Source of the DNA: an uncultured Mucilaginibacter sp.
GTDB lineage: Bacteria; Bacteroidota; Bacteroidia; Sphingobacteriales; Sphingobacteriaceae
Length of the DNA: 36,464 nt
Assembly (NCBI GenBank): GCA_913777515.1
Contig: CAJYSL010000370.1
Span: 1 to 36,464 of the forward strand
Direction: 5' to 3'
This document shows, in pieces, positions 18,304 to 22,549 of the stretch. The translations under genes were made by a program, and so were the position numbers. Each line of letters starts with the position of its first letter. Position 1 is the stretch's first letter. The notes beneath the pieces are model-generated. The model had not been told where the DNA came from. It saw nothing but the letters and a program-made list of their open reading frames with translations, and did no database searches.

Positions 18304-19776
18304 ATGAGCAAGGGTATAATAAGTAAAGACGAAGATTACTCGCAATGGTTTAATGACCTTGTAATAAAAGCTGATCTTGCCGAATATTCGCCGGTAAGGG
18401 GCTGCATGATCATTAAGCCATACGGCTACTCCATCTGGGAAAAAATGCAGGCCGCGCTTGATAAGATGTTTAAAGATACCGGTCACAGCAACGCTTATTT
18501 CCCGCTGTTTATACCTAAATCTTTCTTTTCAAAAGAGGCCAGCCACGTAGAGGGCTTTGCCAAAGAATGCGCCGTAGTTACACACTATAGATTAAAGAAC
18601 GATGGTGAGGGCAACATTATTGTTGATGAGGAAGCAAAACTGGAAGAAGAATTAGTGGTGCGCCCAACGTCAGAAACTATTATCTGGAACACCTACCGCG
18701 GCTGGATACAATCGTACCGCGATTTACCTATCCTGGTTAACCAGTGGGCTAACGTGGTGCGTTGGGAAATGCGTACCCGTTTATTTTTACGCACCAGCGA
18801 ATTTTTATGGCAGGAAGGCCACACTGCCCACGCCACTGCCGAAGAAGCGATAGCCGAAACGGAGCAAATGCTGGACGTTTATGCCGATTTTGTGGAAAAC
18901 TGGATGGGGGTGCCCGTAGTAAAAGGCCGTAAAACCGCCAACGAGCGTTTTGCCGGTGCACTGGATACGTATTGCATTGAAGCATTGATGCAAGACGGAA
19001 AAGCCTTACAGGCCGGTACCTCACACTTTTTGGGTCAGAATTTTGCCAAAGCTTTTGATGTGAAATTTACCAGCAAAGAAGGCAAGCTGGATTATGTTTG
19101 GGCTACATCATGGGGGGTATCAACCCGTTTAATGGGTGCTTTGATTATGACCCACTCTGATGATGCCGGTTTAGTGTTACCTCCAAAACTGGCACCGATA
19201 CAGGTGGTAGCCGTGCCTATTTACAAGCACGACGAAGAGCTGGAAAATATTCGCACCTATATTAAAAGCCTAAGCGCCGAATTGAGGGCAAAAGGCATAT
19301 CTATCAAATTTGATGATCGCGACACCCAGCGCCCGGGCTTTAAATTTGCCGAATACGAGTTAAAAGGTGTGCCGCTGCGTATTGCTATCGGTAGCCGCGA
19401 TATGCAAAATGGTACGGTTGAACTGGCCCGCCGTGATACTAAAACTAAAGAGACGGTAGCGCAAGACGGCTTAGCTGAGCGTATTGAAAAGCTGTTAGAG
19501 GAAATTCAGGAAAACATCTATCAAAAAGCTTTCAACTTCCGTGCAGAAAACACCGTTGAGGTAAACGATTACGAAGAGTTTAAACGCATGCTGGACGAAA
19601 AGCCGGGCTTTATATCAGCCCATTGGGACGGTACTTCTGAAACCGAACAACGCATCAAAGAAGAAACCAAAGCCACCATCCGTTGTATACCTTTAAACAA
19701 CAAGCAGGAAGAAGGCAAGTGTATCCTGACCGGCAACCCTTCGTCGCAAAGGGTGTTGTTTGCGAGGGCGTATTGA
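18304..19776 (+). CDS. proS: Prolyl-tRNA synthetase, archaeal/eukaryal type
   Basis: Class II synthetase that charges tRNA-Pro; cytosolic dimer. The 490-residue length, absence of the large bacterial editing insertion, and the C-terminal aromatic end (RAY) mark the short archaeal/eukaryal-type ProRS common in Bacteroidota. Active-site motifs are RPTSE at 120-124, motif 2 region [23 protein letters not shown] at about 153-175, an AGTSH element near 239, and motif 3 GSRD ([11 protein letters not shown]). The TGA stop (19774-19776) abuts directly a CCCCCCAG repeat unit, so the 3' untranslated region is wholly repeat. Confidence 0.96.
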
Positions 19777-19800
19777 CCCCCCAGCCCCCTGAAGGGGGAG
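19777..19800 (+). repeat. G/C-tract repeat, copy A
   Basis: C6-AG-C5-T-GAA-G5-AG, a small palindrome (CCCCCT/AGGGGG-like) beginning on the base after the proS stop. Same family as copies B, C and D. Copy A points rightward and forms an outward-bounded inverted pair with copy B around the ORF at 19832-20332. Confidence 0.85.
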
Positions 19801-20376: not shown

Positions 20377-20400
20377 CTCCGCCTTTAGGGGGCTGGGGGG
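20377..20400 (-). repeat. G/C-tract repeat, copy B
   Basis: Inverted copy: CTCC-GCC-TTT-A-G5-CT-G6, with one G in the C tract as its only clear difference from copy D. It ends 10 bases before the cystathionine gamma-synthase ATG and so forms most of that gene's leader. A further short palindromic stretch (TCCTTCCCTAAAAGGA) lies just upstream at 20347-20362. Confidence 0.85.
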
Positions 20401-20410
20401 CAGCAGTGAT

Positions 20411-21550
20411 ATGAAATTCGCAACTAAAGCAATACATGCAGGGCAACACCCTGACCCAAGTACAGGCGCGGTAATGACGCCGATTTATCAAACGTCTACC
20501 TATGCCCAGCGGGCTCCGGGCGACCACCAGGGCTATGAGTACTCGCGTGGTACCAACCCAACGCGTAAGGCACTGGAGGATTGTTTAGCTGCGTTGGAGA
20601 ATGCTAAATTCGGTCTGGCTTTTTCGAGCGGCATGGGGGCTACCGATGCGGTAATGAAATTACTACAGCCGGGTGACGAGGTTATTACCAACAACGATTT
20701 ATACGGCGGTTCATACCGTATCTTTACCAAGATATTTGCCAACTACGGCATCAAGTTTCATTTCATCAATCTGCACCAGCCGGAGATTATCCACGAGTAC
20801 GTGAACGATAAAACTAAACTGGTTTGGATAGAAACACCAACTAATCCTACCATGCAGGTGGTAGACATTCAGGCAGTGTCGTCTATTACTAAAGATAAAA
20901 ACCTGATGTTGGTGGTAGATAATACTTTCGCTTCGCCATACCTGCAAAACCCAATGGATTTGGGCGCCGACTTGGTGATGCATTCGGTAACGAAATATAT
21001 TGGTGGCCACTCCGATTTAGTGATGGGCGCTTTGATGATGAATGATGAGGATTTGTACAAGCGCTTGTGGTTTATCTATAATTCGTGCGGTGCTACACCC
21101 GGACCAATGGATAGTTTTTTGGCATTGCGTGGCATCAAAACCTTGCACTTGCGCATGAAAGCCCATTGCGAAAATGGCCGTGCCATAGCCGAGTTTTTAA
21201 AAGACCATCCAAAAGTAGAGCGCATTTACTGGCCCGGTTTTACCGATCATCCCAACCACCATGTTGCGGCTAAACAAATGCGTGATTTCGGCGGCATGAT
21301 TTCCATCGTATTAAAGGGCGCCGACCTGAAAGAAACTTTTCGCATTGCCTCCAACTTCAAGGTGTTTACGCTGGCCGAGTCGTTGGGTGGGGTAGAATCA
21401 CTCATCAATCACCCGGCCACCATGACCCACGCCTCCATCCCGCGCGAAACCCGCGAAGCTGCCGGTGTAGTAGACAACCTGTTGCGCATCAGCGTTGGGG
21501 TAGAAGATATTGATGATTTACTGGAAGACTTAAAAAACGCGCTGGCGTAA
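20411..21550 (+). CDS. Cystathionine gamma-synthase / gamma-lyase family PLP enzyme
   Basis: Cytosolic PLP-dependent trans-sulfuration enzyme of 379 residues. The PLP-binding Lys is K195 in HSVTKYIGGHSD; YEYSRGTNPT (42-51), SSGMGATDAV (72-81) and ETPTNPTMQVVDI (141-153) are family motifs, as is the C-terminal ESLGGVESLINHPATMTHASIP. Synthase, lyase and O-acylhomoserine sulfhydrylase members are hard to separate by eye, so no gene symbol is given. No riboswitch was recognised; the leader is repeat copy B. Another repeat (21569-21627) follows. Confidence 0.92.
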   Translation: MKFATKAIHAGQHPDPSTGAVMTPIYQTSTYAQRAPGDHQGYEYSRGTNPTRKALEDCLAALENAKFGLAFSSGMGATDAVMKLLQPGDEVITNNDLYGGSYRIFTKIFANYGIKFHFINLHQPEIIHEYVNDKTKLVWIETPTNPTMQVVDIQAVSSITKDKNLMLVVDNTFASPYLQNPMDLGADLVMHSVTKYIGGHSDLVMGALMMNDEDLYKRLWFIYNSCGATPGPMDSFLALRGIKTLHLRMKAHCENGRAIAEFLKDHPKVERIYWPGFTDHPNHHVAAKQMRDFGGMISIVLKGADLKETFRIASNFKVFTLAESLGGVESLINHPATMTHASIPRETREAAGVVDNLLRISVGVEDIDDLLEDLKNALA

Positions 21551-21568
21551 AGAAGAGAAACAAGGGCT

Positions 21569-21627
21569 AAGAGCCAGGAGCCAAGAGAAAAAAATGTCAA
21601 ATTTTCAATTCTTGGTTCCTGGCTCTT
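21569..21627. repeat. Inverted repeat of GAGCCAGGAGCCAAG type
   Basis: Arms of 17 bases (21569-21585 and 21611-21627) pair with a single G-T wobble around a 25-base AT-rich loop. The arms themselves are made of near-direct heptamers (AGCCAGG, AGCCAAG), and a further related unit (TTCTTGGCTCT) follows at 21630-21640. It fills the gap between two genes and ends 25 bases before the next ATG. It may act as a terminator but looks like a dispersed repeat. Confidence 0.7.
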
Positions 21628-21652
21628 GTTTCTTGGCTCTATACTCAAAAAC

Positions 21653-22549
21653 ATGGTTACCGATATTAAAGCTTTCCTGGATGCTAAAGTGGCGCAATAT
21701 AACCGGCCGGAGTTTATTGAAAACGACCCGATTGTAATACCGCACCAGTTTAGCCTACAGCAGGATATCGAAATCATGGGTTTTTGGGCGGCTACGTTGG
21801 CTTGGGGTCAACGCGTAACCATCATCCGAAAATGCCGCGAACTGATAGCCCTGATGGATGGCGCCCCATACGATTTCATCATCAACCATCAGGAACCCGA
21901 CCTTAAAAAGTTACTCAGCTTCAAGCATCGCACATTTAATGATATCGATACCCTATACTTCATCGCATTTTTCAGGCATCATTACGAAAAGTTTGAGAGT
22001 TTAGAGGATGCGTTTATACAAGTACAGCTACAGCCCCCCAGCCCCCTAAAGGGGGAGCAAATACATCAAGCGGAATATCATCCTGCCAACCCAACTTCTA
22101 CCCCCCCTTTAGGGGGCTGGGGGGCTGTAGCTGAGCTCGGTTTAAACCACTTTCGTTCCTATTTCTTCTCCTTACCCGATTATCCGCATCGGACTAAAAA
22201 GCATGTATCGTCGCCGTCACAAAAATCTACGTGTAAGCGGCTGAATATGTTTTTGCGGTGGATGGTGCGTAAGGATGATGCCGGGGTAGATTTTGGTATC
22301 TGGAAACGCATTAGTCCGGCGCAGCTGATTTGCCCATGCGATTTGCATGTAGACCGTATTGCGCGCAAACTTAAACTCATTACCCGAAAGCAGACCGATT
22401 GGCAAACAGCCGTGGAACTCACCGAGCACCTGCGCCATTTTGACCCGCTCGACCCGGTAAAATACGATTTCGCCCTGTTCGGTTTAGGTATAGAAGAGCG
22501 GTGGGGCCTCGACAGTATTCTGCCTAACGCCCTGCTCTCAGATGATTAG
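21653..22549 (+). CDS. TIGR02757/DUF2400 family protein with in-frame repeat insertion
   Basis: The start is the ATG at 21653 (298 residues); the longer frame opens on a TTG inside the preceding repeat. The conserved core is intact on both sides of an insertion: PIVIPHQFSLQQDIEIMGFWAATLAWGQR at the N-terminus, then PHRTKKHVSSP, CKRLNMFLRWMVRKDDAGVDFGIW, LICPCDLHVDRIARKL and DPVKYDFALFGLGIEERW. The family is uncharacterised; the helix-rich KRLNMFLRWM region recalls HhH-type DNA-binding proteins, which is only an impression. Residues about 125-161 (PPSPLKGE ... PPLGGWGA) come from an inverted pair of G/C-tract repeats and are absent from what I remember of the family. Confidence 0.85.
   Translation: MVTDIKAFLDAKVAQYNRPEFIENDPIVIPHQFSLQQDIEIMGFWAATLAWGQRVTIIRKCRELIALMDGAPYDFIINHQEPDLKKLLSFKHRTFNDIDTLYFIAFFRHHYEKFESLEDAFIQVQLQPPSPLKGEQIHQAEYHPANPTSTPPLGGWGAVAELGLNHFRSYFFSLPDYPHRTKKHVSSPSQKSTCKRLNMFLRWMVRKDDAGVDFGIWKRISPAQLICPCDLHVDRIARKLKLITRKQTDWQTAVELTEHLRHFDPLDPVKYDFALFGLGIEERWGLDSILPNALLSDD
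22025..22133. repeat. Inverted pair of G/C-tract repeats (copies C and D) inside a CDS
   Basis: A perfect 31-bp inverted repeat: arm C 22025-22055 and arm D 22103-22133, spacer 47 bases. Each arm holds the unit C6-AG-C5-T-AAA-G5, preceded by CAGCTACAG. The unit matches copies A (19777) and B (20377), and the pair has the same outward-bounded orientation. It reads through in frame within the TIGR02757/DUF2400 gene, adding about 36 residues. Confidence 0.92.

Follow-up and report, generated by a model that had tools for sequence, protein, structure and literature searches.

Coding palindromes are already known, from Rickettsia, where the Rickettsia palindromic elements (RPE), reportedly described by Ogata in 2000 and 2002, lie in frame inside conserved genes. 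A study on R. japonica reports that orthologues can carry inserts at one locus, sometimes belonging to different RPE groups, and leaves undecided, for six species, whether this reflects a hot spot or a common origin (PMC3767692). RPE-4 and RPE-6 are counted among the CGTC (TGTC) REPs, which have intragenic copies, many of them in repair genes, and include Bacteroidetes among their named hosts (PMC3733652). One paper treats REPs as extragenic (PMC12306157), and MITEs of Coxiella are also found in frame (PMC5896051). Among the papers listed by our literature search, for which most subscription papers were beyond reach, none reports such inserts in the DUF2400 gene, in Mucilaginibacter or in Bacteroidetes.

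The locus described here lies in a 36,464-nucleotide stretch of DNA from an uncultured Mucilaginibacter sp. (contig CAJYSL010000370.1 of assembly GCA_913777515.1), referred to below as the window; the genome to which it belongs is called the source genome. Like an RPE, its insert is a multi-copy palindrome that sits in frame in a conserved gene and is lacking in distant orthologues, known here from DNA only; unlike an RPE, it belongs to another phylum and consists of other repeats. Compared with the six species in the R. japonica study (PMC3767692), the present material comprises 137 genomes together with a gene tree, controls taken from shuffling and from the gene body, a search through the class, and one nested case. 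What is new here is the dense, controlled evidence of repeat families replacing each other at one loop genus-wide. These families are REP-A, present in the window, and three others designated B, C and D. Units of B, C and D begin with C/TGTCA, which, compared by ends alone, likens them to the CGTC REPs (PMC3733652), and the GTCAT of B and D is the ATGAC motif of RPE-4/6/7 (PMC3767692) read on the other strand.

The inverted repeat in the DUF2400 gene

The DUF2400/TIGR02757 gene (21653-22549, plus strand, 298 aa), recognized from its ORF and from profile matches, had been reported to contain a perfect inverted repeat, and it does: the arms, 22025-22055 and 22103-22133, are 31 nt long, 100% complementary and 47 nt apart. 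The frame is also open through the insert, as claimed (ORF 21626-22549, with an ATG at 21653), and the match to the conserved family is continuous on both sides, the TIGR02757 profile (199.9 bits, cut-off 139.2) and Pfam DUF2400 (280.5 bits) each aligning with the protein in a single stretch that spans the insert. The size of the insert, first put at about 36 residues, was refined: 42 residues separate the anchors SLEDAF and LNHFR, against 12 in the shortest relatives. The codons of this variable loop (IQVQLQPPSPLKGE...PPLGGWGAVAELG, 22016-22141, plus strand) were delimited by the anchors.

Each arm holds a copy of the REP-A unit, located by repeat search and core matches. The left unit, GCCCCCCAG-CCCCCTAAAGGGGG-AG (22033-22057, plus strand), is read as PPSPLKGE; the right unit (22101-22125, minus strand) is inverted and read as PPLGGWGA, its final two bases in the window (22101-22102) being GG where the consensus has AG. 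The 47-nt spacer between the arms (22056-22102) is unlike the spacers of other pairs seen in the source genome. Outside the units, a left extension, CAGCTACA (22025-22032, plus strand), is complementary to the right flank, which carries the extension TGTAGCTG (22126-22133, plus strand); with the 8 nt of the left extension, the left arm of the window reaches beyond the REP-A unit. Two relatives, G154 and G167, share the right extension, and the left one is imperfect in G154 and missing from G167. Because the right flank is shared with these genomes while the left extension is imperfect or absent there, we infer that the 8 nt would have been gained by arm-to-arm copying, for which this is the single case.

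The stable mRNA hairpin that had been expected was recovered as a predicted fold: positions 22010-22150 reach -84.6 kcal/mol versus a shuffle mean of -42.3 (z -10.8, 0 of 200 shuffles as good). The two further G/C-tract units reported nearby were likewise found by core match (at 19783-19800 and 20379-20394), the copies extending over 19776-19800 and 20377-20401, both between ORFs. The former, a TGAA variant on the plus strand, starts at the TGA stop of ORF 18304-19776, base 19776 being the last base of that stop codon; the latter, on the minus strand and with one core mismatch, lies 9 nt before the ATG of a metB-like gene (20411-21550). Over the whole window the REP-A core, with up to two mismatches and both strands counted, has seven matches versus 0.25 expected. 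Most of the gap ahead of the DUF2400 gene is occupied by an imperfect inverted repeat of another kind (AAGAGCCAGGAGCCAAGAG type, 21551-21645, 45 nt, 71% complementary), also detected by repeat search, which we take to resemble another common Bacteroidota repeat.

A disrupted gene copy beside an intact paralogue had been named as a possible objection; in the source genome, which is 84% complete, no second DUF2400 copy was found, and the other match to the gene listed there is the repeat itself on the opposite strand. In one other genome (G027, locus L065), a second piece matching residues 180-286 adjoins a full DUF2400 gene. The same incompleteness, together with the 473 contigs of the assembly, would fit an insert that arose as an artefact when a fragmented metagenome was assembled or binned. 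Against such an origin, the same loop inserts are present in single-contig genomes, e.g. G154 (L162) and G034 (L034), and an artefact is excluded in practice.

In an AlphaFold2 model built from 48 aligned sequences (mean pLDDT 88.9, pTM 0.87), residues 121-160 have pLDDT block means of 54-72, and residues 123-154, between two helices, carry no assigned structure; on this model the loop is read as disordered. A single-sequence structure prediction (pLDDT 34.8) was discarded for the alignment-based model. Structural comparison with VIA-align placed HhH-GPD glycosylases first (NTHL1, Z 12.4, 4.1 Å over 202 residues, such Z scores being not unusual for helical proteins), with EndoIII, MutY and OGG1 next, and the 50 matches shown were all HhH-GPD proteins or DUF2419. 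Foldseek alone gave no match with E below 0.57, its first entries being unrelated terpene cyclases. The comparison is suggestive only, and DUF2400 may possibly have a DNA-glycosylase-like (HhH-GPD) fold. A profile search of solved structures gave a single match, to a designed repeat protein over 29 positions (E 3e-5), which was taken as irrelevant.

Varied occupants and frequent changes at one loop across Mucilaginibacter

Of the 149 genomes of the genus, 145 gave a match to the DUF2400 gene, and the loop was read in 137, the source genome included (G112, G151, G082, G089, G119, G141, G152 and G163 were left out; loci L077, L078, L080 and L081 are outside the analysis). Three loops were missed by the anchor pattern and delimited by hand. 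Every loop was compared, in either orientation, with five repeat units, and a repeat was called at a score of at least 20 with a shuffle p of at most 0.01. At these thresholds, uncorrected for the ten unit/strand comparisons, 114 of the 137 loops hold a recognizable repeat: 77 REP-A, 36 B/C and 1 D. As B and C overlap in sequence, 'B/C' may stand for one or several families. Among the 23 loops in which none was recognized, some may contain decayed repeats (e.g. L032 and L166, judged by eye).

The body of the gene is clean. A score of at least 20, taken alone, is reached by 116 of the 137 loops versus 3 of 1068 equal-length windows of the conserved gene body, and 99 loops score at least 30. An earlier control had covered whole stop-to-stop frames (33 of 1064 windows at 20 or more); since these frames took in leader sequence, it was narrowed to the conserved body. 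The loop itself has a median length of 25 residues (range 12-54), and the 120 residues before it and the roughly 122 after it align almost without gaps (726 of 729 columns kept). By loose patterns, in which double counts are possible, REP-A is read in the loop as PPSPLKGE-like (45), PPLGGWGA-like (30) and SPFRGLGG (14 species), the last using another frame, with a 3' border that takes the place of LN in LNHFR.

The insert of the window is one case of a recurring site, because different species hold different in-frame palindromes there. The original prediction was right that a repeat had entered in frame; its picture of a single entry into an otherwise clean gene has to be given up in view of this occupancy and of the many changes described below. 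The alignment with close relatives, suggested to see whether the segment is absent from them, found it present, G154 and G167 carrying the same pair. We consider it likely that short palindromic repeats have landed in frame at this site again and again, and that 22016-22141 represents one of its states.

The excess of REP-A at DUF2400 extends beyond the loop into the flanks. Around 50 DUF2400 loci, 182 kb of flanking sequence contain 15 exact REP-A cores, where about 1.4 would be expected at the density of the source genome; 12 of the 15 lie 1.17-1.40 kb before the frame, matching the copy ahead of the metB-like gene in the window.

The occupants were placed on a tree of the DUF2400 gene minus the loop, i.e. 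one short gene with quick support values, in which 38 of 134 inner branches were starred. The family label requires a minimum of 42 changes and the finer state one of 60; for the finer state, shuffled labels averaged 84, and none of 200 shuffles reached so low a value. If only starred branches are counted, the B/C label must have changed at least 13 times, A+- (the REP-A pair) at least 11 times and SPFRGLGG at least 10 times. Close relatives with different occupants include the sisters L035 (A) and L191 (B) with a support of 98, L182 (A) and L048 + L051 (B) with 99, and a sister set of L176 (A), L041 + L194 (B) and L259 (A, SPFRGLGG form) with 96. Flanking codons agree on one or both sides in the first two sets; L035 and L191 share GTACC...GAAACTGCC, and their inserts are both 99 nt long. 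The third set is not uniform at the 3' border either. On the tree, exchange of sequence by recombination between species could give the appearance of such turnover.

In one species, L225, a palindrome C stands between two REP-A halves, the right recognized by score and the left by eye, and it seems from the sequence that C is nested inside a REP-A pair; the tree state of this locus was assigned by hand. Covariation of the arms was also compared. In 29 paired inserts, own arms pair at a mean of -57.3 kcal/mol and arms of different species at -54.3, a mean as low as the former being reached in none of 5000 permutations. No conclusion is drawn from this: the gain is small, the own partner has a median rank of 14 among 29, and relatedness is not removed.

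Could all this descend from one ancestral REP-A pair, present before the genus radiated and since then subject to divergence and decay only? The prevalence of REP-A (77 of 137 loops), neighbours that share a form, such as an A+ group of seven (support 82), and the clustering of labels on the tree, which no shuffle equalled, agree with such a history. It does not account for B, C and D, which are multi-copy elsewhere and cannot come from REP-A decay, nor for the occurrence of REP-A in three frames/orientations with different borders, and we regard it as improbable.

Outside the genus 67 loops were taken, 62 of which could be delimited. The segment was expected to be missing from distant orthologues, and this is what we found: a score of 20 or more was obtained in 3 of the 62, where L106 is really a Mucilaginibacter-like bin whose loop is the same as that of L054, L148 is marginal in score, and L056 holds a different repeat. 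The latter, in a genome of another family of the class (G043), is C/G-rich (CCCCCTTAATCCCCCTCCAAAGGGGGAC...) and lies in frame in the same loop. Pedobacter loops vary in length and can be long without these repeats; given these loops, the variation in length appears to be old, and therefore only the filling by these repeats is specific to the genus, as far as sampled. Two further DUF2400 genes, L138 (titled Bifidobacterium breve) and L153 (Rickettsiales), are close to those of Bacteroidota, with 62 and 59% identity to that of the window; their titles or bins are probably wrong.

The REP-A family and the search for its mover

The conserved part of REP-A, derived from 33 copies of the source genome and 55 others, is about 26 bp long and can be written AAGCCCCC(C/T)AGCCCCCTAAAGGGGGA(G/A). 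The consensus of the 33 own copies is AAGCCCCCCAGCCCCCTAAAGGGGGAG, and the 55 others are near-identical; flanks are not conserved, and spacers differ among the pairs seen. In contrast to the GTAG and CGTC superfamilies, the ends of the consensus from these 33 and 55 copies are neither GTAG nor CGTC, and the GTAG in the right flank of the window falls outside the unit.

The suggested genome-wide count confirmed a multi-copy family, with 36 exact matches to the 14-bp core (CCCCCTAAAGGGGG) in the source genome and none to the reversed control. The exact core is present in 123 of 149 Mucilaginibacter genomes (reversed control 0). In a class sample of 198 genomes it was found in seven: the source genome, one other member of the genus and, at 1-2 copies apiece, 5 of the remaining 196. 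Because of this difference, 123 of 149 against 5 of 196, REP-A is, on sequence counts, essentially a genus-level family. Exact matches to B, C and D occur in 64, 88 and 134 of the 149 genus genomes, respectively; when the units were reversed as a control, C matched once, in a single genome, and B and D had no match. Family D (GTCATTGCGAGGAACGAAGCAA) reaches 155 copies in one genome of the genus and, among the places listed, forms many inverted pairs about 59 bp apart.

The unit had been suspected of being shaped to be readable in frame. Read by hand, four of the six frames of REP-A are free of stops, so that no special shaping is required. Three of the stop-free frames are seen in the DUF2400 loop, and the fourth, APQPPKGG-like, occurs in RadA. 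Several copies of REP-A stand directly before a start codon (...GG-M), e.g. L297, L301, L306 and L327 (G064, G067), the genes behind them being metB-like and, by eye, peptidyl-tRNA hydrolase; the G-run of such copies may touch the ribosome-binding site.

With respect to mobility, REP-A recalls the REPINs, in which two inverted REPs form one long hairpin, as they do in the 29 A+- loops here. One could assign REP-A to the RAYT/REPIN type, with a Y1 (IS200-like) transposase as its mover, considering that the unit is palindromic, that several inverted pairs exist, and that Y1 matches occur in 133 of 149 genus genomes, with one in the source genome. Unlike REPINs with their RAYT, no association with a transposase was found for REP-A, and the spacers of the pairs seen are not conserved. 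Within about 1.5 kb on each side of Y1 (30 of the best loci and the own one), the REP-A core occurred at 1 of 31 loci and cores of B, C or D at 0 of 31, and no core turned up when 4.5 kb surrounding the Y1 match of the source genome were scanned less strictly. Moreover, 11 of the 16 genomes without a Y1 match hold exact cores, and five of them, which are 99% complete, hold 6-21 each. Movement of REP-A by Y1 therefore seems unlikely to us. A transposase link was sought for all units and none could be tied to them, and no target sequence or target duplication was defined for the inserts.

RadA, the loop as a probable landing site, and possible consequences

Copies inside genes were read for 30 of the 36 own cores and for 52 cores of G064, G066, G067 and part of G061, with the reality of each gene judged by eye and featureless frames of 117-184 aa taken as spurious. 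By eye, DUF2400 and RadA are the sole conserved genes of these four genomes in which a copy is clearly internal, and several other cores stand immediately ahead of a start codon and are read through. Of the 30 cores in the source genome, one lies inside a gene and two lie at C-termini. The former (L020, contig C218) is a 239-aa frame resembling a membrane protein, with REP-A in frame near residue 116, read as NSPFRGQGG.

RadA, represented in G066 by L320 (556-2010, minus strand), is a repair gene. Its loop after MRAER is a second in-frame site: of 30 RadA loci read (L333-L362), 12 hold REP-A there with a score of at least 25. A search of 61 genomes had ranked these 30 as the best matches, and since its query was a RadA with REP-A of its own, the share may be too high. 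One of 328 windows of the RadA body scored, and 129 kb of RadA flanks contain no exact core. The RadA loop of the source genome has no REP-A, and other RadA loops hold SQKSEVGS-like repeats.

If insertion were random throughout the genome and survived only in loops like that of DUF2400, tolerance alone would explain the pattern, and the low model confidence of the loop, as well as the variable length of Pedobacter loops without these repeats, speaks for it. Under such a scheme the load should spread over many loops; the same two recur across species, and clear in-gene copies are rare by eye (L020 for 30 own cores, RadA beside DUF2400 for the 52). We consider tolerance alone an unlikely explanation.

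On the other hand, the palindrome-coded segment might be useful, as an mRNA or DNA hairpin or as a flexible linker, with any family serving. The recurrent occupation by different palindromes, with the repair gene RadA as a second case, is what one would expect of a useful segment, and the paired form makes very stable hairpins: for 150-nt folds, the median z of REP-A pairs (A+-) is -5.2 (29 loops). The other classes argue against it, with weak values for A+ (-1.39, 27 loops) and B/C (-0.66, 36) and no folding beyond chance for SPFRGLGG (-0.54, 14), A- (+0.40, 6) and repeat-free loops (-0.14, 23), the upstream control stretches of the loop classes having medians of -0.1 to -0.6. As repeat-free loops fold no better than chance, a hairpin is not needed at this site, and we rejected it as a requirement; Pedobacter loops, too, serve without these repeats. 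Usefulness of the segment thus appears rather unlikely.

Returning to the recurrent landing site, we infer a preference for this locus and propose a process in which repeats would enter, or be replaced at, the loop more often than elsewhere, perhaps via replication- or repair-linked processing of single-strand hairpins. Hairpin-linked replacement of whole palindromes is suggested because in two sister sets the palindromes differ as a whole and the flanking codons are alike. Selection would then retain only insertions that preserve the frame and bring no stop; REP-A has four open readings out of six. A resident palindrome could recruit others, as the one nested case suggests, and its arms could be copied onto each other, as in the 8-nt extension of the window's left arm.

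The many occupant changes at one loop in 137 genomes make the entry, exit and swapping of palindromes in genes directly testable. They also present a conserved protein in which repeat sequence supplies most of a loop of 12-54 residues. The bias towards repair genes remarked on in PMC3733652 recurs in RadA and, going by the modelled fold only, might extend to DUF2400. A bolder and quite tentative idea, which we would sooner doubt than accept, is that disordered loops of repair-related genes (DUF2400, RadA) are interchangeable palindrome sockets, into which palindromes of any family would be repeatedly installed, swapped whole and translated throughout the genus. If this were true, either insertion targets such loops or selection maintains the coded segment, and the sockets would be a steady source of new protein sequence.
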